64,000 nucleotides of DNA from Bacteroidota bacterium (GTDB lineage Bacteria; Bacteroidota; Bacteroidia; Chitinophagales; Saprospiraceae): NCBI GenBank assembly GCA_020160935.1, contig JAIUPL010000012.1, forward strand, positions 1 through 64,000, given 5' to 3'. A program made the position numbers and the translations under genes. The notes below the pieces were generated by a model, which saw nothing but the letters and a program-made list of their open reading frames with translations, had not been told where the DNA came from and searched no databases. Of this stretch, positions 1 through 60,673 are shown one piece after another. Every line of letters starts with the position of its first letter. Positions within the stretch are counted from its first letter, which is position 1.

Positions 1-51
1 TTGTTGCTCAAAATTTTGATAGTCGAAGTCTTCTTTCTTTTTGCCTTTCAT
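1..51 (-). CDS. IS256-family-like transposase, N-terminal fragment (partial)
   Basis: An ATG at 51 on the reverse strand opens a reading frame that stays open to the window edge, giving 17 residues beginning MKGKKKEDFDYQNFEQQ. This charged start followed by an aromatic-rich short helix resembles the N-termini of IS256/Mutator-type transposases in Bacteroidota. Only the start is present, so no DDE catalytic residue can be checked. The product would mobilise the flanking insertion sequence. Confidence 0.45.
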   Translation of the reverse strand, partial: MKGKKKEDFDYQNFEQQ

Positions 52-12403: not shown

Positions 12404-12546
12404 ATGTGTGATTGTGCGTTTTGGGCATTTGTTCGGCTATGCCCCTTGTAGAGGGATGGGAACACCGCGTCAGCCGTTTCATCCGTGTTCCCATCCCTCT
12501 ACAAGGGGCATAGCCGAACAAATGTCCAAAACGCACAATCACACAT
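12404..12546. repeat. Long inverted repeat (62-bp arms)
   Basis: Arm 12404-12465 pairs with 12485-12546 with a single mismatch around a 19-nt loop. The arm contains TTGTAGAGGGATGGGAACAC and GGCTATGCCCCTTGT; the latter word recurs near 58563-58588. There is no T-tract. It lies between the start of one secreted-protein gene and the end of another, all on the minus strand. Confidence 0.9.
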
Positions 12547-21932: not shown

Positions 21933-21946
21933 TCAACTAATGATAT

Positions 21947-22057
21947 GAACACTCTACGCTTTGTGTCCTTTGTGAAACCTTCGTGTTCTTCGTGGTAAAA
22001 ATTTTTAACCACAAAGTACACCACGGTTTCACAAAGGACACAAAGCGTAGAGTGTTC
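21947..22057. repeat. Long inverted repeat (33-bp perfect arms)
   Basis: Arm 21947-21979 pairs perfectly with 22025-22057. The central 45 bp contain a smaller palindrome (GTGGTAAAAATTTTTAACCAC). The arm word GGACACAAAGCGTAGAGTGT is shared with the element at 56063-56187. It lies 14 bp after the DinB stop and about 75 bp before the convergent permease stop. Confidence 0.9.
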
Positions 22058-22130
22058 AAAATCAATAAAAAAAATCCGTTTTAATCCGAAAAAGTCCGTT
22101 TCATCCGTTCTCCAATCCTGTCACGCTTTC

Positions 22131-24439: not shown

Positions 24440-27400
24440 ATGGAGTATCGTCCAAGCGACATCGAGCCGAAATGGCGTAACTGGTGGAAAGAAAACCAGA
24501 CGTACAAAGTTGAGAATCAATCCAATAAACCCAAATTCTACATCCTCGACATGTTCCCCTACCCTTCCGGCGCGGGGCTGCATGTGGGCCACCCGCTCGG
24601 TTATATCGCTACTGATATTCTGGCTCGTTACAAACGCCTGCGCGGTTTTAATGTGCTGCACCCGATGGGTTACGACTCTTTCGGCCTGCCCGCAGAGCAA
24701 TATGCCATTCAAACAGGCATACACCCGGAGGTTGCTACCGAACAAAATATTGCACGGTATCGCGAACAGTTGGACAATATTGGGTTCTCCTTCGACTGGA
24801 GCCGGGAAGTGCGTACCAGCGACCCTGCTTATTACAAGTGGACGCAGTGGATTTTCATGCAATTGTTCAACCACTACTACGACCTGGATGCCAACAAAGC
24901 CCAGCCTGTAAGCCGCCTGATGGAGATTTTTTCCAAAAATGGCAATTCCGGCGTACGCGCTGTTTGCGACGACGATACGCCCGCTGTCAGTGCATCGGAA
25001 TGGAATGCCATGGACGAACGCGCTCAGCAATTGCTGCTGCTGAAATACCGCCTCACCTACCCCGGCGAAGCGTATGTGAACTGGTGCCCGGCGCTGGGTT
25101 CCGTTTTGTCGAATGACGAGGTTAAAGATGGCGTTTCCGAACGCGGCGGCCACCCTGTAGAGCGCAAACTGATGAATCAGTGGAATATGCGCATTACGGC
25201 CTATGCTGACCGACTGCTGGAGGGGCTTGAAGAAATCGACTGGTCGGATTCCATCAAGGAACAGCAACGCAACTGGATCGGCCGCTCCGTCGGCGCTTCC
25301 GTGCGCTTCGATGTGGAAGGCCATGCAGGTATGCAAATCGAAGTGTTCACCACCCGCGTTGACACGATTTATGGCGTTACGTTTATGGTGCTGGCGCCCG
25401 AGCATGATCTCGTGAACACCATTACAAAGGACGCACAACGCACTGATATTGAGTCGTATACGAAATGGGCGGCCGCGCGTTCGGAGGTGGATCGTATGGC
25501 CGAAACCAAAAAGGTTACGGGCGCTTTCACTGGCGCTTACGCCATCAATCCGTTCAACAACGAGCGTGTGCCGATCTGGATTGCCGACTATGTGCTGGCC
25601 GGCTACGGCACTGGCGCCGTGATGGGCGTGCCTTCCGGCGACCAGCGCGACTGGAATTTTGCCACGCATTTCAGTCTGCCGATTATCCCGATTCTCGATA
25701 GTCAGAAAGATATTGAAACGGCTGCCGATGCGACCAAAGAAGGCCGTTATATCAATTCAGGCATTATCAATGGCCTGAATTATGAAGAGGCGACCCAAAA
25801 ACTGATTACCTGGCTGGAAGAAAACAAACGCGGCAAGGGAAAAACCCAGTACAAACTGCGCAATGCGGTGTTCAGTCGCCAGCGCTACTGGGGCGAACCC
25901 GTGCCTGCCTACTGGAAAGACGGCGTGCCATACCTCATCGATGAAAAAGACCTGCCGCTGGTGCTGCCTGCCATCGACAAGTATTTGCCCACTGAAACCG
26001 GCGAGCCACCCCTCGGCCGTGCAGAGGGATGGAACTACAAAGGCTACGAATACGAACTGTCGACCATGCCCGGCTGGGCTGGTTCTTCGTGGTATTTCTA
26101 CAGGTATATGGACCCGCACAATGACGGTGCATTTTGCTCCAAAGAGGCCGGCAACTATTGGCAACAGGTGGATTTTTACCTCGGCGGCTCCGAGCATGCC
26201 GTAGGGCACCTGCTGTACAGCCGTTTCTGGAATCATTACCTGTACGACCTGAACCTCGTGCCACACCGTGAATTTGCCAAACGACTGGTAAATCAGGGTA
26301 TGATTCAGGGGCGTTCCAATTTCGTTTTCCGGGCCAAAGAGCGCTTTTTTGAAGAATACCTCGTACTCAAAGTGCTGAATCCGTTTTTCGCGGAAATGGG
26401 CCCCATGTCGATCGTCAAGGCCGAATTTGAAGAAGAACATCAGTACGACTTCGCTTTTTCCACCAATAATCTGGTGATTGAGGTGACCTCCCGCAAACAG
26501 GCGGATAAAATCGAACGCGTGTACCGCACCGCACAGGCCGATGGCAAACGCTTGCTGGTGTTGTACAGCGAACAACTGATCGACCATATCAATGCGCCGG
26601 AAAACATCGCGGAAATTATCCGGCAGGCCATCGCCAGTTCGGAAGAATATATCCTGCCGACAGAAGAACCCGTTTGCGAGCAGTTGTACGTGTCGCACAA
26701 CCTGATGCACAAGTACCATCCCGATTCGTTTACAAAACTGCACGTGGATGTAAACATCGTGGTGGATGACATCCTCCAACTGGACAAAGCCCGCAAAATG
26801 CCACAGTTTGAAAAAGCCAATTTCAAACTCGATGCATCGGGCCAGTACCACTGCACCTGGGAAGTGGAAAAAATGTCCAAATCCAAGTACAATGTGGTCA
26901 ACCCCGACGATATGGTGCGGGAATACGGCGCCGACTGCTTCCGGATGTTTGAAATGTTTCTGGGCCCCATCACCGATGCAAAACCCTGGAATACGCAGGG
27001 TATCAGTGGTGTGAGTGCGTTTTTGCGCAAATTCTGGGGATTGTTTTTCAATGCTGCCGGCCAGTTTTCGGTGAGCGATGAAGCGCCCACAAAAGACGAA
27101 TTGAAGATCCTGCACACCTGCATCAAAAAAGTGAGCGACGATATCGAGCGCATCAGTATGAACACCTGTGTGAGTCATTTCATGATCGCTACCAACGAAC
27201 TTCGCAAATTAAACAGCGCAAAACGCGCCGTACTGGAGCCGCTGGTCATCATGCTGACACCTTTCGGCCCGCATACGGCAGAAGAACTCTGGCATTTGCT
27301 GGGTCATTCTTCCACTGTCTGCGATGCCTCCTGGCCCGCGCTGGATGAATCTTACCTCAAATCGGACACCTATGTGTTCCCGATCCAAATCAACGGCAAA

Positions 27401-27553
27401 CTGCGCGCGACCATTGAACTGCCTACCGACGTGAGCGCTGCCGACGCGGAAGCCGCCGCCCTGCAACTCGAACAGGTGCAGAAATGGATGGAAGGCAAAC
27501 CCGCCAAAAAGGTGGTGTTTGTGCCGGGAAGGATGATTAATGTGGTATGCTAG
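24440..27553 (+). CDS. leuS: Leucyl-tRNA synthetase with inserted nuclease-like domain
   Basis: LeuRS charges tRNA-Leu in the cytoplasm. The protein is 1037 aa, about 100 longer than typical Bacteroidota LeuRS. The HIGH motif is HVGH at residues 48-51 and KMSKS is at 811-815; the CP1 editing domain lies between about 220 and 430. The extra length is a block at about 633-747, inserted after NFVFRA where most relatives run straight on to the HVDVNIV segment. The block reads like a DUF559/PD-(D/E)XK endonuclease-type fold (YDFAFSTNNLVIEVTSRKQ, then RLLVLYSEQLID), but the expected EVD is EVT. It is probably structural. The gene ends against the inverted repeat at 27557. Confidence 0.95.
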   Translation: MEYRPSDIEPKWRNWWKENQTYKVENQSNKPKFYILDMFPYPSGAGLHVGHPLGYIATDILARYKRLRGFNVLHPMGYDSFGLPAEQYAIQTGIHPEVATEQNIARYREQLDNIGFSFDWSREVRTSDPAYYKWTQWIFMQLFNHYYDLDANKAQPVSRLMEIFSKNGNSGVRAVCDDDTPAVSASEWNAMDERAQQLLLLKYRLTYPGEAYVNWCPALGSVLSNDEVKDGVSERGGHPVERKLMNQWNMRITAYADRLLEGLEEIDWSDSIKEQQRNWIGRSVGASVRFDVEGHAGMQIEVFTTRVDTIYGVTFMVLAPEHDLVNTITKDAQRTDIESYTKWAAARSEVDRMAETKKVTGAFTGAYAINPFNNERVPIWIADYVLAGYGTGAVMGVPSGDQRDWNFATHFSLPIIPILDSQKDIETAADATKEGRYINSGIINGLNYEEATQKLITWLEENKRGKGKTQYKLRNAVFSRQRYWGEPVPAYWKDGVPYLIDEKDLPLVLPAIDKYLPTETGEPPLGRAEGWNYKGYEYELSTMPGWAGSSWYFYRYMDPHNDGAFCSKEAGNYWQQVDFYLGGSEHAVGHLLYSRFWNHYLYDLNLVPHREFAKRLVNQGMIQGRSNFVFRAKERFFEEYLVLKVLNPFFAEMGPMSIVKAEFEEEHQYDFAFSTNNLVIEVTSRKQADKIERVYRTAQADGKRLLVLYSEQLIDHINAPENIAEIIRQAIASSEEYILPTEEPVCEQLYVSHNLMHKYHPDSFTKLHVDVNIVVDDILQLDKARKMPQFEKANFKLDASGQYHCTWEVEKMSKSKYNVVNPDDMVREYGADCFRMFEMFLGPITDAKPWNTQGISGVSAFLRKFWGLFFNAAGQFSVSDEAPTKDELKILHTCIKKVSDDIERISMNTCVSHFMIATNELRKLNSAKRAVLEPLVIMLTPFGPHTAEELWHLLGHSSTVCDASWPALDESYLKSDTYVFPIQINGKLRATIELPTDVSAADAEAAALQLEQVQKWMEGKPAKKVVFVPGRMINVVC

Positions 27554-27556
27554 GTA

Positions 27557-27689
27557 AGTCCTGAGTCGTAAGTCCTGAGTCCTGAGTCTGTAGAGTACAC
27601 CTGATTTCCCTTGGCATCAATAGAATGGTAGCCAAGGGAAATCAGGTGTACTCTACAGACTCAGGACTCAGGACTTACGACTCAGGACT
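27557..27689. repeat. Perfect 59-bp inverted repeat with GGC-N15-GCC tip
   Basis: Arms 27557-27615 and 27631-27689 are perfectly complementary. The 15-nt loop is ATCAATAGAATGGTA. The outer arm consists of 7-bp words (GAGTCCT) and the inner arm holds TGTAGAGTACACCT. It starts 3 bp after the leuS stop. The last codons and stop of the convergent GT22 gene (27668) lie inside its right arm. There is no T-tract. Confidence 0.95.
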
Positions 27690-29125
27690 CGATACAGGCT
27701 CCACATCCGCGTCCGGCTCTGCCAGTCGTTCACATTTACCTTCAAAATCCATTCGGGGAAATAGGCGTACAAACGCGTGGTTTGTGCCCCGGGTGGCGGA
27801 TTTTTGAGGATCAGGTCTTGCGAGAGCAGCAAGGAACCTGCCGGAATATTTTTTGCCCGAACATTCAGGTACATGATGTTGTGAATATTCGGCGAGCGGT
27901 AGAAATTCATATTCAATCCCACCGACTCATAAAGGAGTTTTTTATGGGAATACACCGTCACTGGATTTTTTTCAGCATAGCGATACAGGAAATGGAAACA
28001 AGCCACCGACTCCTGAGCCGCCAGCAGACTGCGTACGGGCAGCAAGAGGCAATTGACCACAAGCGTAACAACCACCAGAGGGCGTACCCAGCGCCACAAG
28101 CGCTTTTGAGCCGTCAGTCGGCTCCGCCCATCTGCCCATCCCCAGGCAGCGAGCACCAGAATGGGCAGCAACATGGGGTACATGAAGCGCATTTCTTTGT
28201 GCCCTACTACAAAATGAGCGAGCAGAAACGGCATCAGGCTCCAAACCAATACGTTGTCCCGTTTTTTGCGGAGGCCATTTACCAGCAACAACAACAGCAA
28301 CAGACCAACCAGGGGAGTAGCCGTCAGCACGGTTTGTTCCAGATAATACCACCAGGGAGAAGTGCCCCAGTAGGCGGCCTTGTTGTCTACAATATTGGAA
28401 ATGAAATAGTTGTAAGGTGCAAAGGTGTACGTTCCATACAGCCAGATGTCTGCTGCAAATCCCGGAATACAGGCTGCGACGAACCCTGAGAACAACCATA
28501 ATATCGGCCGGATACCCGCTCTAATTTGATAAGAATGCCACAAAAGCCAAACTGCCAGGCCTGCCAGCGCGAAACCCATTTGATAGCGGAAGAAAAAGGA
28601 CAGACCCAGGAGAAATCCTGCTACAAACACCTTCCAGCCCTGCTTTTCAAGCCCTTGCAACAGCAACAGCGCTCCAGCCACAAAACTCAATCCGGCCATA
28701 TTTTCCGAAGAAAAACGTACGGACAGATAGGGTACAAACCACAGTAACAAAGCCATCCAGCGGAGTGCATCTCCCGCATTTTTATCTTCCGCATCGAGCC
28801 GTCGCGCCCATGCAAAAAACAGTATGCAAGCCAGCACGCCACTCAGCAGGCGCATTAAAAAAACCTGAAAAAAAGGATCGGAAATGCCCAGTGCTTGTGC
28901 CGCACGAATAATAGCGTATGCCAGCGCCGGTTGCAAACCGGGCCGAATTTGCGCCTCATACTCCCAGGGCAACTCCTGCAGCGAAGTGCCGCCAAGTTTG
29001 TAATTGGCCAGTTCAATGACCTGAAAATGCTCGTCCGGGTGGTGATAACCTTCACTAAACCAAGCGGTTACAGCATACAGGGCCATCGAAAGAAAAAAGG
29101 CGATGCGGCGAAACCTAGTTGTCAT
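27668..29125 (-). CDS. GT22-like mannosyltransferase, integral membrane
   Basis: The product is 485 residues, polytopic (about 9-11 hydrophobic segments). An N-terminal loop carries HHPDEHFQ (residues 28-35), the signature of family GT22 lipid-linked mannosyltransferases that use a polyprenyl-phosphate sugar donor on the outer face of the membrane. It likely adds a sugar to a cell-surface glycan or glycolipid. The next gene on the same strand (from 30877) is a polyprenyl-phosphate sugar transferase, consistent with a glycan pathway. The C-terminal VLSRKS and the stop codon are written in the repeat at 27557-27689, so the native end is probably altered. Confidence 0.8.
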   Translation of the reverse strand: MTTRFRRIAFFLSMALYAVTAWFSEGYHHPDEHFQVIELANYKLGGTSLQELPWEYEAQIRPGLQPALAYAIIRAAQALGISDPFFQVFLMRLLSGVLACILFFAWARRLDAEDKNAGDALRWMALLLWFVPYLSVRFSSENMAGLSFVAGALLLLQGLEKQGWKVFVAGFLLGLSFFFRYQMGFALAGLAVWLLWHSYQIRAGIRPILWLFSGFVAACIPGFAADIWLYGTYTFAPYNYFISNIVDNKAAYWGTSPWWYYLEQTVLTATPLVGLLLLLLLVNGLRKKRDNVLVWSLMPFLLAHFVVGHKEMRFMYPMLLPILVLAAWGWADGRSRLTAQKRLWRWVRPLVVVTLVVNCLLLPVRSLLAAQESVACFHFLYRYAEKNPVTVYSHKKLLYESVGLNMNFYRSPNIHNIMYLNVRAKNIPAGSLLLSQDLILKNPPPGAQTTRLYAYFPEWILKVNVNDWQSRTRMWSLYRVLSRKS

Positions 29126-29130
29126 GCATT

Positions 29131-29450
29131 GTTGGGGTTTTTGGGGTTTTTGTATTTTGGTGTTTTAGTGTTTTGGTGTTTTTGTGGGCTTCGCGCTTGG
29201 CAGGGTGAAATAGGTTGAGATGTTGAGGGGTTGAGATGTTGAGGGGATGAGGGGGTTGAGGGGGTTGAGGGGGTTGAGGGGGTTGAGGTGAAGAGAAGTT
29301 GAGGGGTTGAGAAGTTGAAGGGTTGAGCCTCAACTTCTCAACCCCTCAACCCCCTCATCCCCTCAACATCTCAACCTATTTCACCCTGCCAAGCGCGAAG
29401 CCTCCAAAACACAAAAACACAAAAACACTAAAACACCCAAACACAAAATC
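29131..29450. repeat. Very large compound inverted repeat (about 320 bp)
   Basis: Nested layers pair across the whole stretch: outer TGTTTTGGTGTTTTAGTG words, then CTTCGCGCTTGGCAGGGTG and AATAGGTTGAGATGTTGAGG, then GGGGTTGAG tandem words. An innermost 18-bp stem (29301-29318 with 29330-29347) closes an 11-nt loop. The left side has one additional copy of the middle block. It separates two minus-strand genes and ends a few bases from the sugar transferase stop at 29456. Confidence 0.85.
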
Positions 29451-29455
29451 CGCTC

Positions 29456-31815: not shown

Positions 31816-31834
31816 GGCAAGCAGTGTTGGGTGG

Positions 31835-31960
31835 AGTTATGAGTTAGGAGTTATGAGTTATGAGTTTTACTCACTTTGCTTTTGGCTTCTTCAATAGAGT
31901 GGCCAAAAGAAAAGTGAGTAAAACTCATAACTCATAACTCCTAACTCATAACTCATAACT
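31835..31960. repeat. Inverted repeat with GGC-N15-GCC tip (A)
   Basis: Arms of about 52 bp (31835-31886, 31902-31953) pair with few mismatches; the right arm has one additional heptad to 31960. The 15-nt loop is TTCTTCAATAGAGTG. Outer words are GAGTTAT, and the inner stem is ACTCACTTTGCTTTTGGC. The right arm ends 4 bp from the stop of der. Confidence 0.92.
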
Positions 31961-34427: not shown

Positions 34428-34453
34428 GCAGGTATCGGGTCTATTTCCCGCAG

Positions 34454-34601
34454 AGTAGTTTCCCGCAGATTTCCGCAGAATACACGCAGATTTCCGCAGA
34501 TCGTAGAGTACACGTTGATTTTTTTCATCATTTGGAATAATGTGTACTCTACGATCTGCGGAAATCTGCGTGTATTCTGCGGAAATCTGCGGGAAACTAC
34601 T
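34454..34601. repeat. Perfect 60-bp inverted repeat
   Basis: Arms 34454-34513 and 34542-34601 are perfectly complementary around a 28-nt loop. The outer arm repeats the word TTTCCGCAGA; the inner end is CGTAGAGTACAC, a core also present in the element at 27557. Further partial repeats flank both ends. Part of the same word occurs at 9670-9710, inside the GIY-YIG gene. Confidence 0.93.
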
Positions 34602-34652
34602 CTGCGGGGAACTACTCTATAGTAAATAATCAATAACAACACCATTCATATC

Positions 34653-35174
34653 ATGACACCGCACGCTTTCCTCCACGATATGCTGCTGCTCGAACACAGC
34701 AAGGCACAAACCATGCGCATCGTCCACTGGATCGGCGCAGACGCAGACCGCCTGGCCGCTTTGATCGACATTTTTCTAGGCGACGAATACCGCCTCACCC
34801 AGCGCAGCGCCTGGGTCGTGCGGTATGTAGGAGAAAAGCACCCGGATATGATGAAGCCCTACTACCCCATGCTTTTGGAAGCAATGGACCACCAACCTGT
34901 GCACGACGCTGTCAAAAGAAACACCCTGAATGTTTTTGAAGATGTGGAAATTCCGGCTGAGTATTACGACGCATTGGCAGACCATTGTTTCAATTACCTG
35001 TCTGATCCGAAAGAACCGATCGCCATTCGTTGTGCATCGATGACTGTTTTGGAAAAAATTACCCGCCAGATACCGGAATTAAGACAAGAACTCCGGCTGC
35101 TGCTGGAGGAACAACTGGAGTTTGAGTCGGCGGGAATCAGAAGCAGGGCGAAAAAAACGATAAAAAAGTTATGA
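34653..35174 (+). CDS. HEAT-repeat-like helical protein, unknown function
   Basis: The product has 173 residues, all alpha-helical by pattern, with paired helices typical of HEAT/Armadillo repeats (AALIDIFLGDEYRLTQRSAWVVRYV; AIRCASMTVLEKITRQI). Such proteins mediate protein or DNA contacts; some relatives are alkylation-repair glycosylases, but no catalytic residue is evident. The stop TGA at 35172-35174 lies within the first heptads of the inverted repeat at 35168-35284. Cytoplasmic, function unknown. Confidence 0.65.
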   Translation: MTPHAFLHDMLLLEHSKAQTMRIVHWIGADADRLAALIDIFLGDEYRLTQRSAWVVRYVGEKHPDMMKPYYPMLLEAMDHQPVHDAVKRNTLNVFEDVEIPAEYYDALADHCFNYLSDPKEPIAIRCASMTVLEKITRQIPELRQELRLLLEEQLEFESAGIRSRAKKTIKKL

Positions 35175-35284
35175 GTTATGAGTTATGAGTTATGAGTTAT
35201 ACTCACGTTGCTTTTGGCAACTCGATTAGTAAAGCCAAAAGCAACGTGAGTAAAACTCATAACTCATAACTCATAACTCATAAC
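35168..35284. repeat. Near-perfect 51-bp inverted repeat with GGC-N15-GCC tip (B)
   Basis: Arms 35168-35218 and 35234-35284 match at 50 of 51 positions. The 15-nt loop is AACTCGATTAGTAAA. It contains four GAGTTAT heptads per arm. Left: the stop of the HEAT-like gene (35172-35174) is inside the element. Right: the stop of the giant A2M gene (35287) follows directly. It therefore occupies the full gap between two convergent genes. Confidence 0.95.
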
Positions 35285-35286
35285 TC

Positions 35287-38200
35287 TTATTCCACTTTCA
35301 CCCGTATCCCTTTCGAGTGGCTCGAAAACTCGGGCGCATACATGCACTGCATAGTGGTAATACCATTGCTCATGTCGCCGCGGTGGGACACAACGAGCGG
35401 ATATTCAAACACATAAGTACCACGGGGCAGGTGCTCGATAAAGAAATTGGTGGCCAGGTCTTTGGTACTCTCATAGTAGCCCAGGCCGTTCTGCCAGCGA
35501 TAGCCGCTCAGCACGTTTACGGGCTCGAAACCGGCAGCGCGCATGTCTTTGAGGTGAACGAACTCCATTTCGCGGTCGACCCGAATTTCAATGCGCACCT
35601 TCACTTTATCGCCCCGATGCAGCACAGCGCCTTCGGAAATCGGTTGTAGGATCGGGCCAGTCGCTGAGTTTTCTTCCCGGAACAGTTGTTTCACGATGGT
35701 CAGCGGCGTTTTCTGGAAGTCGCTGATCTTGTCGAGATCTTCAAAGTATTGCCAGTAGGCGGCGCCCCATACAATATTGGAATTGGGGTTTTTTACCTCA
35801 ATTTTGCTCCATGAAGACTTGATGTCCTTGCCCGTCCAGGCCTCTTTGAAATAGCCCGTACCAGGTTCGGATTCAGCAGGTTGCAGGGTTTTTCCGCCCA
35901 GCGACACTTGTACCGGTTTGTTGTTGGCCAGCCAGTTTTCCTGTTTTCCGGTACCGATGAGCAAAGCGTACACCGCTTCGGCAGTGGCCTTGGTGCTTTC
36001 CCAGCGGTTGGTTTGTTTGTTTTTGAGCAACCATATGCGCAGTTCCTCGACCGATTTGGTGTCGTTGGCTACTTCACCAAACACTTCCACCATGAGCGCC
36101 TGGGTTTCTACGGGCAACTGGTACCAGTAGTAGCCCCAGTTGACAGGCCAGTACATACCCAGTTCTTCTTTCATGATAGCGCGTTCGCGCAGGCTGGCAA
36201 CGATGCTGGCGGCAGTATTACGGCCGTGGCGATGCAAAGCAAGGGCCAGCATGCCTTCCTGATAGATGCCTTTGCCGAGCCAGTATTTTTCAGCCTGACC
36301 GAGGTAGTAAGCCAGTTCCTTGCCGGGGCGGTCGACGGGGAAAAACGAACGCGCATAGAGGTACTGAATCGTCATACCGTCGAGGTGGTCGTCTTCCCAT
36401 TTTGTTTTTCCGGCTTGCACATCGCGTTCCAGTTCGCGGTACTGTTCCTGGATTTTCCGGTCGCAGTAACCAAGGGCTTCATTCACCATTCCAGGCAGTT
36501 CCTGCTCCTGGCTGGCGTCGAAAACACCTAATTTAGCCAGGTGTCCAAATCCGGTAACGATGTATTGGGTGATGTACCAACTATCCTTGCCGCCCGGGAA
36601 CCAGGGCCAGCCGCCATTTTCCAGTTGGCGTTCCTCCAGTACACCCAGCGTACGCTCGCGTTCGGCGGCCATGCGGTTGAGATCGAACAGCAGCGCAATA
36701 TTCTGCTTTTGCTGTTCTTCGCTTTGTGCGTCGAGCACCCAGGGCGTTTCTTCCAGCAGCGCTGATTTCAGTTCCTGGTTTTTGCTCAGGTTCGATTTGA
36801 TGGCGTCTGTGCCTTTCCAGCGTTCGTACATGCGCTGTATTTGCGGCATTTTCCCTACTACACCGGAAGCAAGGCTGTTGGCATAAAAACGGCTGAATAT
36901 TTGCTCCGAGCATTCGTGCGGATATTCCATGATGTAAGGCAGCGCCTGCACGGCATACCATACAGGGTTGCTGGTAAATTCGATGGTGTAGCGATGGTTA
37001 ACCAAAGAACTGCTGTTTCCGCCATTTTTAAAATTACCGAAAACAAAGGTCTTGTTCTGATTGCCGCGCAAGGTAATGGGCAGCGTTTCGGTCACGAGCA
37101 TGCGATTGGGAACCACCGGCAGGCTGCTTTCTTCACCGTCTTTAAACTGTTTGCTTTCTGCAAACACCTGCCAGGTAACGGCGCCAGTGAAATCTTCCGG
37201 CACACGCACCGTCCATGCCAGCGGGGCCGACTGGCCAGCCTGCACGTTGAACGGCACGCTGTTGTTGGTTGCAGTGAGTTTGAAAGCCTCGCCGACAGGT
37301 TTCAGGGTAGCAGCATCCAGCAATTGCAGGGTAGCCTTGCCTTGCAGGGCCTGTTGCGAGAGGTTGCTCACCTTTGCAGCAAACTCAAAGGAGTCGCCTG
37401 CGCGCAGGAAGCGGGGCGGATTAGTGATCACCATGAGTTCTTTCTGCGTCACTACTTCTTTCACCGACAGCGCCTGTTCCAGGTTTTTGGTATGGGCAAA
37501 TGTGAGCAGTTTCCAGCGGGTAAGCGCTTCGTTCATCGTAAATTTCAGCACCACGTTGCCATCCTTGTCCGTTTGCAGTTGCGGGAAAAAGAAAACGGTT
37601 TCTTTCAGGTTGCTGCGGGGCGTTACACCACCATTGGATTCCGTTTTCGGAGGCTCTGTGATGGATGAGGGTTCATCTCCAACAAGGTCGTTGCGCACAA
37701 TCTGTACCTTTTCCTCGTAAGTTTCCGGGTCGAACGTCACAACGGTATCCACGGCTGCCTTGCGCATTTTGCCGCCGGCCATGGGAGCGGGGGCAGTTGC
37801 CATCACTTCATTACGCCATGCAAAATCACCATAACTCCTGCTGAAGGTGTTCCACATCTGGAATCCCCATAAGTTCAGCGAGGGGTACTGGCGGCCCTGG
37901 ATATATTCGTATGCGTCGGGCGTAAAATGCGTTTCGCCGGTGCGGGCATTGAACGTAGCCACCGAAGTGTTTACTTGAGAATTGTGCATCGGAAAATAAA
38001 TCCGATCCCAGGTGTGTGGCATAAACTGGTCGAGCGAAGCATCGTACATGGCCGCCACAAGTTCTGCGGCTACCTTGTCTTTTTTAGGCCCGCTGATTTT
38101 GAGTCGCCATTCCTCTTTCTGGCCCGGGCTCAGTTTGTCGCGGAAGGTTTCATAACTGATTTGCAGGTCTTTGTTGCTCCACGGAACATTCACGCCAATA

Positions 38201-41578: not shown

Positions 41579-42121
41579 ATGTCTGAAACATCCCGTCCGG
41601 TAAAACGTGTCGCACTTGTTGGCCCCGAAAGTTGTGGCAAAAGTTATCTGTCAGAATACCTCGCCCGTCATTTTCAAACCGTTTTTGTGGAGGAATACGG
41701 CCGCACCTATTGTGAAAAATTCGGCATGGACCTCACCGAACTCGACTTCGCACACATAGCAGGCGGACAATTGTACCGGGAAGATGAAATGGCGCCAAAG
41801 GCCAACGGCGTACTCATTTGCGATACCGAACTGATTGTCACACAAGTATGGAGTGAAATTTACTTCAACGGCGTTTGCCAGCCCTGGATCGAATGGGCCA
41901 GCCGACAACGACACTACGACCATTATCTGCTGCTGGCGCCCGATATTCCCTGGGTGAACGACGGACTGCGCGAGTACGAACACCGGCGAGACTGGATGTT
42001 CCAGCGACTGCACGATATTTTGAAAGAAAGAAAACTGCCTTTTACCATCGTGCAGGGCGATTTTGAAACGAGGGACAAAGTGGCGGTGGCGGCCGTGTTA
42101 GAGGTGAGAGGTGAGAGGTGA
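41579..42121 (+). CDS. NadR-like ATPase/kinase domain protein
   Basis: The product has 180 residues from ATG 41579. A Walker A motif GPESCGKS (about 15-22) is followed by VEEYGRTYCEKF and ICDTELIVTQVW, the pattern of the ribosylnicotinamide kinase domain of NadR. It probably phosphorylates nicotinamide riboside or acts in NAD salvage; only the kinase domain is present. The last residues (VLEVRGER) and the stop are written in the 7-bp GAGGTGA words of the repeat at 42101, so the native C-terminus is changed. Confidence 0.82.
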   Translation: MSETSRPVKRVALVGPESCGKSYLSEYLARHFQTVFVEEYGRTYCEKFGMDLTELDFAHIAGGQLYREDEMAPKANGVLICDTELIVTQVWSEIYFNGVCQPWIEWASRQRHYDHYLLLAPDIPWVNDGLREYEHRRDWMFQRLHDILKERKLPFTIVQGDFETRDKVAVAAVLEVRGER

Positions 42122-42152
42122 GAAGCGAGAGGTGAACAGTTAGAAGTGAGAG
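42101..42152. repeat. Heptad tandem array GAGGTGA (single arm)
   Basis: About seven copies of a 7-bp word (GAGGTGA and variants) follow each other. The reverse complement lies 8.6 kb away at 50764-50798 and a like-sense copy at 60595-60630. No inverted partner is adjacent. The array overlaps the last codons of the NadR-like gene and the end of hutH (42140). Confidence 0.8.
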
Positions 42153-43621
42153 GATTGGAGGAAGTGGATGGTTTTATCGATGTCGACGCTGAGCACGCGG
42201 TCTTCGGCAAGGCGCGGAACATAATTACGGTATTCCGTGTATGCCCTTTCAATCAGATCGGAAGAACGCAGGGGCCGTCTGAAATCGAGGGCTTGCATGG
42301 CTACCATCCATTCGATGGCCAGCAGGCGTTCGAGGTTGAGTACCACGCGGCGCACTTTGGTAGCGGCATTGGCAGCCATGCTCACGTGGTCTTCCTGTCC
42401 GTTGCAGGATACGATGCTGTCGACCGAAGCCGGTGCACACAGTGTTTTATTCTGGCTGACGATGGCCGCTGCGGTGTATTGCGCGATCATCATGCCCGAA
42501 TGAAGTCCCGGGTTATCGGTGAGAAAAGCCGGCAAGTCGCGCTGCCCGCCGATCAACTGATACACCCTGCGTTCGGAAATACTGCCCAGTTCCGACAGTG
42601 CAATAGCCAGATAATCGAGCGGCAAAGCCAGCGGTTGTGCATGAAAATTGCCGCCGGAAACAATCAGATCGTCGTCCGGAAAAATGTTCGGATTATCTGT
42701 CACCGAGTTGATTTCAATGCCCACCATATGCTCCACATGTGCGATGGCATCGCGGCTGGCGCCATGCACCTGCGGTACGCAGCGGAAGGCGTAGGGATCT
42801 TGCACGCTTGTTTTTTCCATAGCGGCGATCTGGCTCCCTTCCAGCATTTTACGGAGTGCGGCGGCCGTATTCAACTGTCCTTTATGCGGGCGCACTTCGT
42901 GAATATGCGCGTCGAGCGGCGAAAGGCGGCAATTAAAAGCATCATAACCGATGGCTGCATTGAAATCGGCCAGATGAGCCAAACGGCGGCTTTCCAGCAG
43001 GCACCAAACGGCATACGACGCCGAAAACTGCGTACCATTGAGCAGCGCAAGGGCTTCTTTTGCCTGAAAACGCAGCGGTTCCCAGCCTTTTAGTTTCAGT
43101 ACCACATCCGATCGTTGGCGGCGGCCTTCATACCACACCTCTCCCAATCCGATGAGTGGCAGACTCAGGTGGGCCAGGGGCGCCAGGTCGCCGGAGGCGC
43201 CGAGCGAGCCCAGTTCGTAGATCACCGGGTAAATACCTTCGTTGTAAAAATCGATCAGGCGCTGCACCACTTCCACCCGTACAGCACTGTGGCCGTAGGC
43301 CAGGCTCTGTACTTTCAGCAGGAGCATGATACGCACCACTTCCGGCGGCGCCACATCACCCGTGCCCGAGGCATGGCTCACCACGAGGTTGTATTGCAAT
43401 TGCTCGATGTCTTCGTCTGAAATACGAATATTGCACAAGGATCCGAAACCGGTGTTTATGCCGTAAAACAATTCGTCCGATTCGGCAATTTTTCGGTCGA
43501 GGTATGCCCGGCAGGCCCGAATACGTTCGGTAGATTCGTCGGACAGTTGCAAGGGAACCTGGCGGGATAAAATTTCGCCTATTTTTTCAAGAGACAGGAG
43601 CGCAGGGCTGATCAGGTGCAC
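42140..43621 (-). CDS. hutH: Histidine ammonia-lyase
   Basis: HutH removes ammonia from L-histidine to give urocanate, the first step of histidine degradation. The protein (493 aa, typical) carries Ala142-Ser143-Gly144 in GASGDLAP, which cyclise into the MIO cofactor. It also has the GSNAP-equivalent context and downstream active-site stretches (FHAQPLALPLDYL, LSELGSISERR). The start is GTG 43621 (MHLISPALLSLEKIG). No other hut gene is adjacent. Related MIO enzymes act on tyrosine or phenylalanine; the active-site details needed to exclude that were not checked. Confidence 0.92.
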   Translation of the reverse strand: MHLISPALLSLEKIGEILSRQVPLQLSDESTERIRACRAYLDRKIAESDELFYGINTGFGSLCNIRISDEDIEQLQYNLVVSHASGTGDVAPPEVVRIMLLLKVQSLAYGHSAVRVEVVQRLIDFYNEGIYPVIYELGSLGASGDLAPLAHLSLPLIGLGEVWYEGRRQRSDVVLKLKGWEPLRFQAKEALALLNGTQFSASYAVWCLLESRRLAHLADFNAAIGYDAFNCRLSPLDAHIHEVRPHKGQLNTAAALRKMLEGSQIAAMEKTSVQDPYAFRCVPQVHGASRDAIAHVEHMVGIEINSVTDNPNIFPDDDLIVSGGNFHAQPLALPLDYLAIALSELGSISERRVYQLIGGQRDLPAFLTDNPGLHSGMMIAQYTAAAIVSQNKTLCAPASVDSIVSCNGQEDHVSMAANAATKVRRVVLNLERLLAIEWMVAMQALDFRRPLRSSDLIERAYTEYRNYVPRLAEDRVLSVDIDKTIHFLQSSHF

Positions 43622-44510: not shown

Positions 44511-44516
44511 TTTCAA

Positions 44517-44657
44517 GAGGCAAGGGGCAAAAGGCAAGGGGCAAGGGGCAAGAGGCAAAATCCCACTCCATATCCTTTGCCCTTTGCCCCTCGCCTTTTG
44601 CATCTTGCCCCTTGCATCTTGCCCCTTGCATCTTGCCCCTTGCATCTTGCCTCTTGA
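44517..44657. repeat. Imperfect inverted repeat of GGGGCAA heptads
   Basis: A left arm of GGGGCAA/GAGGCAA words faces a right arm built from 14-bp CTTGCATCTTGCCC words. The tip is GGCAAA, a 16-nt loop (ATCCCACTCCATATCC), then TTTGCC. Arms are of unequal length. It starts about 7 bp after the first ompH stop. Confidence 0.85.
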
Positions 44658-44660
44658 ATT

Positions 44661-44690
44661 TTGCCACTTGCTTATTAGCACATACCTTTG
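44661..44690 (+). promoter_or_regulatory. Promoter of the second ompH
   Basis: TTG at 44661-44663 and TACCTTTG at 44683-44690, spaced 19 bp, are a close match to the Bacteroidota -33/-7 pattern. It lies directly behind the repeat and 24 bp before the start at 44714. Confidence 0.6.
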
Positions 44691-44713: not shown

Positions 44714-45223
44714 ATGAAAAAAACAATTCTGCTGACCATCGCCCTGGCATTTGCTACGGCTAGCGGTTTCGCACAAAAATTTGGTTACTGCAACACCACT
44801 CAAATTCTTTCCCTTATTCCTGAAGTAAAAGCCGCCGACAGCGATCTGAAGGCTTTTCAGACCCAACTCAACAAACGCGGACAGGATATGGTAAAAGCAC
44901 TGCAAGACAAGGCTACCGAATTGCAGCGCAAAAAAGAACAGGGTACCATTTCACCCAATGACTATCAAACGCAGGAAGCCAAATTGAAGGAGGATCAAGA
45001 CAAGATTGCCAAATACGAGCAGGAAGTAAACACCCAACTGGCACAAAAACGCGAAGAACTATACAAACCGATCTTCGAGCGTTTCAACAAAGCCATGAAC
45101 GATGTGGCCAAGGAAAACGGCTTTTCGCTCGTTTTTGATACCAATGCGCAAGTGATGCTATACGCCGACGAATCGCTGGACTTGACGAAGCAGGTGAAAG
45201 CGAAATTGGGAATAACCAACTAA
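44714..45223 (+). CDS. OmpH/Skp-family periplasmic chaperone (2)
   Basis: The product has 169 residues from ATG 44714 (MKKTILLTIALAFATASGFAQ signal). It has the same plan as the preceding gene: coiled coil at about 35-125 (DLKAFQTQLNKRGQDMVKAL, LKEDQDKIAKYEQEVNTQL), and the end GFSLVFDTNAQVMLYADES. It acts on outer-membrane protein precursors in the periplasm. Its own promoter lies just upstream, so the two copies can be expressed independently. Confidence 0.88.
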   Translation: MKKTILLTIALAFATASGFAQKFGYCNTTQILSLIPEVKAADSDLKAFQTQLNKRGQDMVKALQDKATELQRKKEQGTISPNDYQTQEAKLKEDQDKIAKYEQEVNTQLAQKREELYKPIFERFNKAMNDVAKENGFSLVFDTNAQVMLYADESLDLTKQVKAKLGITN

Positions 45224-45350
45224 GTCGTAAGTCCTGAGTCCTGAGTCCTGAGTCCGTAGAGAACACCTTATTACGTATGGCGTTTATGAATAGAAGGCCA
45301 TGAGTAACAAGGTGTATTCTACAGACTTAGGACTCAGGACTAACGACTTA
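45222..45350. repeat. Inverted repeat with GGC-N15-GCC tip (E)
   Basis: The arms pair around the 15-nt loop GTTTATGAATAGAAG (45282-45296); GGC is at 45279-45281 and GCC at 45297-45299. Outer words are GAGTCCT. The inner segment CCGTAGAGAACACCTT resembles the element at 27557. The left arm has one additional heptad, and several mismatches occur. It touches the stop of the second ompH and that of the convergent S9 peptidase gene. Confidence 0.88.
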
Positions 45351-47366
45351 GAACTTCAAATACTTCTCCAGCCACCCAAAAAACTCCCTTTGCCAGAGCA
45401 AACTATTCTGCGGTTTGCTCATCCAGTGGCCTTCATCCGGAAACGACAGAAAACGCGACGGAATACCGCGCAATTGAGCAGCCTGAAAGGCTTGCATGCC
45501 TTCGCTGAAAGGCACCCGGAAATCCAGTTCGTTGTGAATCACCAGAATAGGCGTATCCCAGTTCTGCACATAGCGGTGCGGACTGTCGGTCTGGTACATT
45601 TTCGGGACGGGCGTTTGCCAGTAAGCCCCTTCAAAGTCGTAGTGCGGAAACCACACTTCCTCCGTGGTGCCGTAAAAACTCTCCAGGTTGAACAAGCCGC
45701 AGTGTGAAATAAATGCCTTGAAACGTTTTTGGTGATTGCCTGCCAGCCAGTACACGGCATATCCGCCGAAACTCGCGCCCACTGCTCCAATCCGGCCGGC
45801 ATCTACAAAAGGCTCTTTGGCAATAGCATCGGTGGCACTGAGGTAGTCTTTCATGGCATCGCCCCATTTGCCGGTGATAGCATCGTTCCAGGCCTGCCCG
45901 GAACCCGGCATACCGCGCCGGCAGGGCGCCACCACTACATATCCTTGAGCCGCCATGAGCGATAGGTTCCAGCGATAGGAAAAAAACTGGCTGAGGGCCG
46001 ACTGCGGTCCACCCTGGCAATAGATAATGGCCGGATATTTTTTGTTCGGGTCAAAATCGGGCGGCAGCACCATCCAAACATTCATGTCCTTGCCGTCGAA
46101 GGTTTTTACCGTGCGACGCTCCACCTTGCTTTTTGTGATATTTTTCCAGGGATTATCCGTTACGAACGACAACTGACGCATAGCGCCGTTCACGGGGCTT
46201 ACGGCATATACTTCCGCCGGCGCCGTCATGGAAATCCGCGTTGCAATCAATTCATTTCCAGCCAGTTTGAAATTGGTAATATCATGGATACCGTCGGTGA
46301 TGCGCCGTATTTTTTTATCCTGCAAGCGGTATTCATAAATCTGGTAGGTGAAATTTTCAGAACTGAGGAAATAAATCACCTTGCCATCGGCCGACCATAC
46401 CGGGTGGTTCATTTCATAGGCCCATCCGGCGGAGAGTTCTTCGGTTTGTTGGGTTTCCAGGTTGAGCATCATCAGGCGCGGGCGGTCGGCCTCGTAGCCG
46501 GGCCGGGCCATGCTGTTCCAGAGCAGGAATTTTCCGTCGGGCGAAAAAACCGGGTCGCGGTCGTATCCCGGGTTCAGTTGGGTAAAATTGAGGGTTTTAC
46601 CCGAAGCGATTTCATAGGCATACAGGTCGCTGTTGGTACTTTGGGCTTCCTGTGTTCCGTTGAGTTTGCGGCAGGTGTAAATGATCCATTTGCCGTTGGG
46701 GCTCCAGGTAATTTGTTCCATGCCCCCGTCGGGTGTCAGCGGGCTGTCGAAACGCTCGTTGCCCTGAATATTGATGGGCGCGCCGGAAAATTTGCCATTG
46801 TTGTAACCCACATAAAAAACATTGCTGTACGCGTAGTCGTGCCACGATTTCCAGTGCCGGTATAAAAGTCCATCTGTGATGCGGCCACTTGCCTTGGGCA
46901 AATCCGGGTAGCGATCTGCCGTATTTTGATCCAGTTTTACATCCTGGGCAAAAAGAATGGATTTTCCATCCGGCGCATAGTGAAATCCATTGATTTCCAG
47001 GTCGCTCACAGCAGCGATCATGGAAGGGCCTTCCACATTCACTTCATGCAGTTTGCCGTCGCGCAGAAAGCCTATTTTTTTTCCGTCGGGCCGGAATTCG
47101 GCATCCGTACTGGTTTCATCCGGGTCGGTCAGGGCACGCGTGACGCCGGTTTTTATTTCCAGCAGGTACAACACTCGGCTGCCTTTATTGGTGGCTACAT
47201 CATAACGTTGTACGCCATACAGGGCATATTTCCCATCGGGAGAAACATCTTCCAACCCTACCCTTCCGATGGTCCAGAGCAGTTCCGGTGTGAGTTTCTG
47301 TTGAGCGGTGGTCGGGAAGGCATCTGACAGCATAAAGAAGAGGGATAAAAAAAGTAGTCGATACAT
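45348..47366 (-). CDS. S9-family serine peptidase (dipeptidyl peptidase type)
   Basis: The product has 672 residues from ATG 47366, giving a Sec signal peptide (MYRLLFLSLFFMLSDAFPTTAQ). The N-terminal ~380 residues form a beta-propeller (repeated YSPDGK/WSPNGKW motifs). The C-terminal alpha/beta hydrolase has the nucleophile Ser in GASFGGY, the Asp in VIHNELDFRV and the His in FPDEGHW. It cleaves peptides in the periplasm or at the surface, releasing dipeptides or unblocked oligopeptides. The next gene in the other direction is a divergent aquaporin. Confidence 0.9.
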   Translation of the reverse strand: MYRLLFLSLFFMLSDAFPTTAQQKLTPELLWTIGRVGLEDVSPDGKYALYGVQRYDVATNKGSRVLYLLEIKTGVTRALTDPDETSTDAEFRPDGKKIGFLRDGKLHEVNVEGPSMIAAVSDLEINGFHYAPDGKSILFAQDVKLDQNTADRYPDLPKASGRITDGLLYRHWKSWHDYAYSNVFYVGYNNGKFSGAPINIQGNERFDSPLTPDGGMEQITWSPNGKWIIYTCRKLNGTQEAQSTNSDLYAYEIASGKTLNFTQLNPGYDRDPVFSPDGKFLLWNSMARPGYEADRPRLMMLNLETQQTEELSAGWAYEMNHPVWSADGKVIYFLSSENFTYQIYEYRLQDKKIRRITDGIHDITNFKLAGNELIATRISMTAPAEVYAVSPVNGAMRQLSFVTDNPWKNITKSKVERRTVKTFDGKDMNVWMVLPPDFDPNKKYPAIIYCQGGPQSALSQFFSYRWNLSLMAAQGYVVVAPCRRGMPGSGQAWNDAITGKWGDAMKDYLSATDAIAKEPFVDAGRIGAVGASFGGYAVYWLAGNHQKRFKAFISHCGLFNLESFYGTTEEVWFPHYDFEGAYWQTPVPKMYQTDSPHRYVQNWDTPILVIHNELDFRVPFSEGMQAFQAAQLRGIPSRFLSFPDEGHWMSKPQNSLLWQREFFGWLEKYLKF

Positions 47367-50761: not shown

Positions 50762-51167
50762 TCCACCTCTCACATCTCACCTCTCACCTCTCACCTCTAT
50801 CAAATCGACTCTCCACATCGGCCGCCTCGGCGAATCCATTGCCGCAGAATACCTGCAACAAAAAGGGTATCGCATTGCCGCGCTCAATTTCCGGGCCGGT
50901 CGTGGCGAGATCGATATTATTGCCTGGGCGCATGACCGACTACTGGTATTTGTAGAGGTAAAAACCCGCTCCGGAGAAGGCTTCGGTGGCCCTGAAGGCG
51001 CCGTCGACGCCAGAAAACAGGACTTGCTGGCCCGCACCGCCGGAATTTATATGGATCAAATTGACTACGACTGGGAAATTCGTTTCGATATTGTCGCCGT
51101 TTTAATGAAAAACGACCAGGTGCTGGAAATCCGGCATGTGGAAGATGCATTTTTTCCTGAGTTATGA
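50691..51167 (+). CDS. YraN-like nuclease-fold protein (UPF0102) with disrupted start
   Basis: The conserved part begins at about nt 50811 (GRLGESIAAEYLQQKGYRIAALNFR) and runs to FFPEL, about 119 residues, with the PD-(D/E)XK-like EIDIIAWAHD...FVEVKTR core. No ATG, GTG or TTG lies in frame between 50694 and the conserved domain. Only GTG 50691, inside namZ, could start it, and the first ~36 residues would then be namZ-overlap and repeat-encoded. The heptad array at 50764-50798 evidently replaced the native start. The stop at 51167 is also in a repeat. The family binds DNA; its exact role is unsettled. Confidence 0.8.
   Translation: MQAGNTTSLFLKPFAKNTSFTPNNPPLTSHLSPLTSIKSTLHIGRLGESIAAEYLQQKGYRIAALNFRAGRGEIDIIAWAHDRLLVFVEVKTRSGEGFGGPEGAVDARKQDLLARTAGIYMDQIDYDWEIRFDIVAVLMKNDQVLEIRHVEDAFFPEL
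50764..50798. repeat. Heptad array CACCTCT (single arm)
   Basis: Five copies of the reverse complement of the AGAGGTG word at 42101. It begins 3 bp after the namZ stop and extends to the beginning of the conserved yraN coding region, overwriting the place where its start codon should be. Confidence 0.85.
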
Positions 51168-51286
51168 GTTATGAGTTATGAGTTATACTCACATTGCTAT
51201 AGGCTTTTTCTTTAGAGGGGCCGAAAGCAATGTGAGTATAACTCATAACTCATAACTCATAACTTCCAACTCATAACTTCCAACTC
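51159..51286. repeat. Inverted repeat with GGC-N15-GCC tip (C)
   Basis: Left arm 51159-51204 faces a right arm from 51220. The 15-nt loop TTTTTCTTTAGAGGG lies at 51205-51219. Heptads are GAGTTAT (left) and ATAACTC (right), with two 9-bp AACTTCCAA insertions on the right. The inner stem is ACTCACATTGCT. The yraN stop (51165-51167) lies inside, and dapB starts 8 bp after it. Confidence 0.9.
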
Positions 51287-51293
51287 AAACAAT

Positions 51294-54668: not shown

Positions 54669-54812
54669 ATCAGTTATTGGTTATTAAGTTATTAGGGGTT
54701 GATAAGGGTTTATTTTCATGTATGCATTGGCCACACAATAAGGAAGGCCAAGCGCACATGAAAATAAACCCTTATCAACCCCTAATAACTTAATAACCAA
54801 TAACTTAATAAC
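54669..54812. repeat. Inverted repeat with GGC-N15-GCC tip (K)
   Basis: Arms built from AGTTATT/GGTTATT heptads and an inner GGGTTGATAAGGGTTTATTTTCATG stem pair around the 15-nt loop CACACAATAAGGAAG (54732-54746), with GGC at 54729-54731 and GCC at 54747-54749. Mismatches cluster next to the tip. It starts 3 bp after the sucC stop and ends about 7 bp before the convergent gene at 54819. Confidence 0.9.
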
Positions 54813-54818
54813 CACCCG

Positions 54819-58347: not shown

Positions 58348-58500
58348 AATTTTTCGCACCTTGATGACGCCAAACGCCCCTTGTCATCCTGACGGGAACC
58401 GTCCACTCTACGAGGGACAATACGCTTTTACGCGCCGTAGCGTGGACGGTTCCCGTCAGGATGACAAGGGGCGTTTGGCGTCATCAAGGTGCGAAAAATT
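58348..58500. repeat. Perfect 59-bp inverted repeat
   Basis: Arms 58348-58406 and 58442-58500 match perfectly around a 35-nt loop. Arm words include CCTTGATGACGCCAAACGCC and CCGTCCAC. A further CTACAAGGGGCGTAGCCGCA word at 58563-58582 is shared with the 12404 element. It sits in the 471-bp gap between the LysM and gliding-type genes; the rest (58501-58780) is unstructured apart from that word. Confidence 0.93.
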
Positions 58501-60595: not shown

Positions 60596-60630
60596 AGGTG
60601 AGAAGTGAGAAGTGAGAAGTGAGAAGTGAG
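60595..60630. repeat. Heptad array GAAGTGA (single arm)
   Basis: Five copies of a 7-bp GAAGTGA/GAGGTGA word start exactly at the stop codon of the gliding-type gene and lead into a terminator hairpin. They are the same family of words as 42101-42152. Confidence 0.8.
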
Positions 60631-60673
60631 AAAATCCTCATTCGTTCGGTTGGACGGATGAGGATTTTGCTTT
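60631..60673 (+). terminator. Intrinsic terminator
   Basis: AAAATCCTCAT (60631-60641) pairs with ATGAGGATTTT (60658-60668) around a 16-nt loop, with a short T-rich tail. It ends the gliding-type gene transcript. Confidence 0.75.

Follow-up and report, generated by a model that had tools for sequence, protein, structure and literature searches.

Six intergenic inverted repeats in a Saprospiraceae genome point to an overlooked kind of hairpin element associated with S23 protein genes

The window analyzed here, a stretch of 64,000 nucleotides from a Saprospiraceae bacterium (contig JAIUPL010000012.1), contains six intergenic inverted repeats that were first described from the letters alone (Table 1). 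All six are present at the coordinates claimed for them, and each carries GGC-N15-GCC at the hairpin center (6/6), with GGC at 27613, 31884, 35216, 45279, 51202, and 54729. The first element sits between convergent genes for LeuRS (24440-27553, + strand) and a PF03901 glycosyltransferase (27668-29125, - strand), with the stop codon of the latter falling within its right arm, and orthologous hairpins occur in a sister genome, G040 (loop 16), and in the relatives G016 and G006. Its arms are perfect over 59 bp, as the sequence-only reading had stated, while pairing elsewhere amounts to 96% in 35164 and 51160, 98% in 31834, 81% in 45222, and 100% in 54672 (outside the tip). At 54669 pairing extends to the two bases at the ends of the loop, as read from the sequence. 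The description of the outer arms as arrays of 7-bp words is accurate, except that the arrays at 54669 are less regular; likewise, the loop sequences had been given correctly, only in an order that differs from that of the coordinates. Family A is defined by GAGTTAT words and an ACTCAC.TTGCT.T.GGC stem, and family B by AGTCCTG words and a GTAGAGTACACC-like stem. The window also features large hairpins that lack GGC-N15-GCC (12404, 21946, 34447, and 58348), and no Rfam match was found in it. One-sided 7-bp arrays of the AGAGGTG/AGAAGTG class, which have no inverted partner, are seen at 42100-42153, 50764-50798, and 60594-60632.

Table 1. Hairpins and inverted word arrays of the window (positions counted from its first letter; loop lengths in nucleotides).
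Feature	Position	Strand	Remarks
Hairpin, family B: AGTCCTG word arms and GTAGAGTACACC inner stem	27557..27689	.	Loop ATCAATAGAATGGTA (15); 59-bp perfect arms
Nested inverted arrays, 8- and 9-bp words TTTTGGTG, GTTGAGGGG	29139..29451	.	Inverted arrays at G040 orthologous site too
Hairpin, family A: GAGTTAT word arms	31834..31960	.	Loop TTCTTCAATAGAGTG (15)
Tip-less hairpin: CGCAGATTT words and GTAGAGTACAC stem	34444..34625	.	Loop 28; missing from orthologous gap in G040 and G016
Hairpin, family A: GAGTTAT arms	35164..35288	.	Loop AACTCGATTAGTAAA (15)
Inverted 7-bp word arrays CAAGAGG / TTGCCTC	44514..44671	.	G040 ortholog exists
Hairpin, family B: AGTCCTG arms, 81% paired	45222..45356	.	Loop GTTTATGAATAGAAG (15); G016 ortholog arms AGTGCGA/AGTACGA
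Hairpin, family A: GAGTTAT arms	51159..51287	.	Loop TTTTTCTTTAGAGGG (15); one-sided word array at G006 site
Hairpin, GTTATTA/GTTATCA word arms	54669..54814	.	Tip GGC-N15-GCC CACACAATAAGGAAG; like word class at G016 and G006 orthologous sites
Long hairpin without GGC-15-GCC tip	12404..12546	.	Loop 19
Long hairpin, ACCACAAAG words	21946..22058	.	Loop 1
Long hairpin, CTCTACG words	58348..58500	.	Loop 23

Such hairpins are abundant in the genome. Its sample comprises the window and forty further 20-kb stretches (864 kb of a 5.84-Mb draft), and an axis scan that ignores the tip finds 140 hairpins with a score of at least 20 in it; one 3-mer shuffle of the window and of relatives' stretches gave none at that score. 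Genes were called with a simple hexamer score (608 genes), and 121 hairpins of score at least 25 were placed among them: 48 in convergent gaps (104 gaps), 55 in tandem gaps (373), 11 in divergent gaps (90), 3 inside called genes, and 4 at stretch ends. The distance to the adjacent 3' end has a median of 9 bp (151 distances). Hairpins of the window's type are gene-end elements. Intrinsic terminators were rejected as an explanation, as the stem lacks a T-tract after it: at least 5 T in 8 nt follow the hairpin in 4.4% of cases, as compared with 7.7% in the intergenic background. The periods of the word arrays in this genome are nearly all 7, 8, 9, or 14, with no arrays of period 5, 6, or 11-13 in the 864 kb. 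As a separate observation, 30 of the 136 gene ends adjoining hairpins overlap them (864 kb, own gene calls), and the words may shape protein C-termini.

The constant tip had been described for the six elements. In the 864-kb sample, an axis-centered GGC-N15-GCC is found in 14 of the 140 hairpins, and relaxing the axis raises this to 15, of which 12 belong to one sequence family. Paired GGC-N(4..40)-GCC tips number 40, with a length of 15 in 15 of them and only four for the runner-up length. Outer triplets on those stems peak equally (CAC at 39 and GCT at 27, 14 each), so the peak at length 15 reflects one family and gives GGC no special role. The 28 GGC tips outside family A have loops of 15 (3), 16 (2), 17 (2), and 21-37 nt (21, some of them counted repeatedly in word arrays). 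Within family A, 30 listed matches with the loop left free at 5-30 read as 17 loci, 16 of them with 15 nt and one with 14, and with the loop allowed 6-26 it is 15 nt in 12/12 matches in the 864 kb and in 4/4 in G040; the loop of the family is about TTCTTCAATAGAGTG. Family B loops behind a GGC tip measure 15, 15, 16, 16, 17, and 17 nt in the window's genome and 15, 16, 16, and 17 nt in G040, where the ortholog of 27557 has a loop of 16 nt. As a rule for the class, the fixed 15-nt tip fails outside family A; on these lengths it is a trait of the family, most simply explained by common descent. The strict family A pattern was found in its own genome only, with no match in 39 relatives nor in the genome contig collection, from which own or near records are perhaps absent. 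A covariance model is dominated by its long stem, and its weaker matches carry little weight. A pattern search for one repeat family returned 25 stretches in four MAGs, three of Saprospiraceae and one of Bacteroidota. Relative to the genes, loops in tandem gaps are sense in 6 and antisense in 7 cases and those in convergent gaps are split 5 and 5; these numbers are small, and an orientation that looks random argues against a loop that is read as RNA.

The arms are more informative than the loop. That they vary between loci and yet match within an element was borne out in family A, where left/right identity of the inner stem is 0.917 within elements and 0.844 between them (32 rows, two loci entered twice; 0/5,000 permutations). 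Changes on both sides are seen at 18 of the 36 stem pairs (35 aligned rows, 30 from the window's genome and 5 from G040), which 0/500 shuffles matched, and sliding the partner by 1-3 columns lowers pairing from 95.9% to 33-43%, although picking rows by motif similarity on both arms favors pairing somewhat. Homogenization is incomplete, since several loci of a family A subfamily share asymmetric, non-complementary inner arms. In the sister genome G040 (MAG-362), flanks are 83-96% identical and an element is present at 6/7 of the hairpin sites between 27 and 46 kb of the window, the exception being 34447. One further locus of the window's genome (L053:4536-4662) and its sister counterpart have an identical 15-nt loop, which is seen at no other of 30 family A loci, and both arms have changed in mirror. 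Three in-register ortholog pairs (152 columns) show 13 mirrored, 11 one-arm, and 3 other changes. With independent arms about 1 mirrored change is expected, and 0/20,000 simulations reach 13, a number whose members are not independent, as E35164 and L053_2 share several from the G040 word set. Of five ortholog pairs, L053_0 and E31834 did not stay in register when compared without gaps, and the mirrored count leaves them out. At the G040 ortholog of 35164, mirrored arm changes accompany a loop that matches at 10/15 positions when inverted and at 5/15 when read directly. The sequence-only reading saw in the equal loops the sign of a recognition site or a generation mechanism; a class-wide recognition site was not supported, and a defined generation mechanism is supported, more by the mirrored arms and genome word sets than by the loop. 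At the single occupied/empty pair, 34447, the boundaries are too diverged to call a target-site duplication of the kind expected for a transposon-derived MITE. Several gaps were examined for clean insertion boundaries, but they are too diverged to show any, and no movement of an element was seen.

The words themselves differ from genome to genome. AGTCCTGAGTCCTGAGTC has 204 matches in the window's genome and 0 in 39 relatives, which do not include G040; the reversed pattern run beside it only rotates that word and cannot serve as a control. G040 carries AGTCCTGAGTCC as well. Threefold AGTNCGA is found 18 times in G016, 13 times in G006, and 0 times in the window's genome, whose AGTCCTG/AGTCCTA faces AGTGCGA/AGTACGA of G016 at 3 orthologous sites. 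GAGTGTT stands beside the stem in 6/6 G040 hairpins with GAGTTAT arms, and GAGTTATGAGTGTT, carried by six hairpins in 187 kb of G040, has no match in the 864 kb sampled from the window's genome. In these comparisons the copies within one genome have words in common, and the words change from genome to genome.

Hairpin sites are shared with G016 (11/18 vs. 1/18, p = 0.0009), and sharing with G006 is no better than chance (7/14 vs. 8/17, p = 1). All convergent sites compared with G016 (7/7) have a hairpin in both genomes, so gene orientation contributes to the sharing. At a score of at least 25, the window has 10 hairpins in 64 kb, G016 has 15 in 80 kb, and G006 has 18 in 62 kb, while G009 has 0 in 140 kb though word arrays are present; arrays and inversion are therefore separable. 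In the G009 stretches L150-L156, arrays of period 7 and 8 occur at 8-11 per 100 kb. Hairpins are absent from 12/23 sampled congeners, some of them sampled in less than 14 kb. Loss of SbcCD was considered as a permissive factor and is unproven. TIGR00619 has no match in G000, the window's genome, and is over the cut-off in G004, G008, and G012, which have 0 hairpins in 14-40 kb; it is also over the cut-off in G014, which has hairpins nonetheless, and many hairpin-free genomes fall below it.

A search for a protein that keeps company with the repeats had been recommended, and it turned up a PF05635 gene bracketed by such arms. At the site in G016 that corresponds to 31834, inverted GGTTTAT arrays enclose a 132-aa gene whose product matches PF05635, the 23S rRNA-intervening sequence (S23) protein, at 2.8e-35; a bAvd-like match stays below the cut-off. 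The GGTTTAT arms are of a word class other than that of the G000 arms, and one need not descend from the other at this site. The solved relative of the protein is XCC0516 (2gsc), reported to be a homopentamer of four-helix bundles (PMC4990558). A search for S23-like genes followed in 2.8 Mb, nearly all from Saprospiraceae kin and with overlaps included. An inverted repeat surrounds 4/5 of the Pfam-confirmed Saprospiraceae genes that have both flanks in the sample (G016, G006, G040, and G022). The fifth, L082 of the window's own genome, has word arrays to its left and right that point the same way, and no inverted repeat within 300 bp. Another S23 gene of that genome (L001) is cut by the end of its stretch and has a hairpin directly upstream, and an S23-like tblastn match in G021 (L211) is bracketed (score 15) and was left out of the count, the scanned piece having no Pfam match. 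The 864-kb sample with its 140 hairpins contains no S23 gene. An exact flanking inverted repeat of at least 15 is found around 4/544 called genes of the window's genome.

The association recurs in plasmids. One tblastn query found 22 records and another 31 that include those 22, mostly from Nostocales, and 24 of the 31 supplied the 25 loci analyzed here; the seven omitted are six judged near-duplicates and one weak partial match. PF05635 is over the cut-off in 23/23 loci scanned, with L321 (a split ORF) and L322 (unannotated) outside the scan. A flanking inverted repeat of score at least 14 is present at 22/25 loci as compared with 31/2,431 control windows taken from these same loci (88% vs. 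1.3%), for which the Fisher value of 3e-36 is too small, since windows overlap and some plasmids share neighbors (L305 and L308, for example). Arms were allowed to overlap gene ends by up to 60 bp; when overlap was disallowed and the flanks were shortened, a score of 14 is reached by 11 of the first 18 loci. The loci without a flanking repeat are L313, L317, and L321. In the 22 bracketed plasmid loci, the best self-match lag of the arms is 7 in 16, 8 in 4, and unclear in 2 (L322 and L324); averaged over 25 arms of at least 16 nt (four from Saprospiraceae), self-match is 0.69 at lag 7 vs. 0.24-0.43 at other lags. Several of these four-helix-bundle genes stand alone among unrelated genes of cyanobacterial plasmids (L307, L310, L309, and L302): they lie inside CRISPR-cas operons, with cas6 and cas4 as neighbors in two plasmids and cas10 and cmr3 in one, or, in one plasmid, between two ribonucleotide reductase genes. 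In an Azospirillum lipoferum plasmid (L316, 3980-4360), the S23 ORF has inverted arms of 7-bp words and lies inside an LSU (23S) rRNA gene, which makes it a true intervening sequence (IVS) with word arms; this ORF is missing from the gene table of the collection. Overall, S23 genes bracketed by inverted repeats, mostly with word arms, are found in Bacteroidota, Cyanobacteria, an alphaproteobacterium, and a gemmatimonad. With one query, no S23 match was obtained in phages or viral contigs, and a limited literature search found nothing that links S23 genes to heptamer arms.

Several known systems resemble these elements in part. The STRR heptamers of cyanobacteria are tandem 7-bp intergenic words in direct arrays; the window elements are likewise built of tandem 7-bp intergenic words, but their arrays are inverted. 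Read from the other strand and rotated, the word GTTATCA in the 54669 arm is TAACTGA. TAACTGA sets are described as direct repeats, and of 170 in one genome a single one was inverted (PMC4679880), whereas inversion is common in the window's elements. REPINs consist of conserved REPs in inverted pairs with an associated RAYT (PMC3116915), and the likeness is that of multicopy intergenic hairpins; the window elements, however, lack conserved terminal REPs, their outer arms varying while inner stem and loop are conserved. Related genomes of sponge mitochondria contain scattered, repetitive intergenic hairpins that diverge in sequence (PMC2800124), a similar picture, although these are mitochondrial and the description, as far as available, has neither word arrays nor an S23 link. 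Template-switch (quasipalindrome) correction yields homogenized arms and spacer inversion alike, but is a mutational process and not an element family. The elements can also be compared with the ORF-bearing IVS of 23S rRNA, a hairpin-ended insert with the S23 ORF between complementary arms (PMC4990558). Excision from the RNA by RNase III is a further trait of IVSs. Complementary arms in one stem-loop are common to both, as are the 7-bp-word arms of the Azospirillum IVS. In contrast, the window elements lie between protein genes rather than within an rRNA gene, exist in many copies, and have 15-nt loops in place of an S23 ORF; such an ORF is present in G016 at the site orthologous to 31834. They are therefore not filed as IVS, being outside rRNA genes and without an ORF.

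The reading we favor, and consider probable though far from assured, is that the six repeats are the short, gene-less form of intergenic hairpin elements of ~7-bp words whose full form carries PF05635, that rRNA IVSs are the same kind of element elsewhere, and that the arms are template-switched, with the S23 protein as candidate driver. The hairpin would extrude in replication or repair, and its arms would copy each other by template switching, which would fix complementarity; copying between loci may homogenize the copies within a genome. Template switching is known to homogenize inverted-repeat arms and to invert spacers (PMC8604942, PMC8794818), and exchange between the arms would be the best mutational account of the changes seen here. 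The association makes the S23 protein the best candidate for a factor that drives insertion or copying. Most insertions that persist would sit directly after stop codons, a position in which they are least harmful and may protect 3' ends.

A purely mutational origin, in which slippage makes the word arrays and template switching the palindromes with no dedicated protein, agrees with the known effects of template switching and with the one loop that fits better inverted (10/15 vs. 5). However, the almost exclusive periods of 7, 8, 9, and 14, the words shared by dispersed copies, and the single gene family that is bracketed far above control windows argue against it, and this origin seems rather doubtful. 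Selection could instead keep the hairpins as RNA 3'-end structures (bidirectional terminators or shields), with compensation at the RNA level mirroring the arms. Hairpins do gather at convergent gaps close to 3' ends, and orthologous gene ends again bear hairpins of other sequence, but the T-tract is missing, loop orientation looks random, hairpins are absent from about half of the sampled congeners, and, in our judgment, ~50 bp of near-perfect pairing with fast turnover exceeds the need of a terminator; we regard selection of this kind as unlikely. Movement of REP/REPIN-like elements by a Y1 (RAYT) transposase is very improbable: the window does contain a gene of the Y1 (IS200-like) transposase family (2317-2838; PF01797, 31.5 bits vs. 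the 23-bit cut-off) and the family is present in 23/30 genomes searched, but genomes rich in hairpins and genomes free of them have similar counts of it (G000 2, G016 2, G006 3, and G009 2), and an element with no REP-like ends, conserved inside and variable outside, is the reverse of a REPIN. With no correlation between Y1 counts and hairpins, such a transposase is disfavored as the mover.

The favored reading, of gene-less hairpins related to S23-carrying elements, can be taken further, though only tentatively. It is possible that S23 genes with word arms and gene-less hairpins form one unrecognized self-copying class in Bacteroidota, Cyanobacteria, Proteobacteria, and Gemmatimonadota, in which the pentamer ring of S23 would guide hairpin-templated DNA synthesis in ~7-nt steps, giving rise to word arrays, matched arms, and copies that overwrite each other, with cyanobacterial heptamers and rRNA IVSs as its traces.

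To our knowledge, no cause is generally accepted for the cyanobacterial heptamer repeats. S23 proteins have in turn been described without a known function (PMC4990558). A recent study that surveyed 118,019 genomes for inverted repeats is described as covering spacers of 0 to 8 bp (PMC13155455), and elements like those of the window would therefore fall outside it. Together with their larger relatives, the window's repeats point to a kind of repetitive element that has been overlooked. Template switching seems to have left a natural record in the arms, which turn over in mirror while the sites stay fixed. This also cautions against taking compensatory changes in a stem as proof of selection on RNA. 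Ultimately, the frequent pairing of S23 genes with heptamer arms makes the function of the one and the cause of the other testable together.
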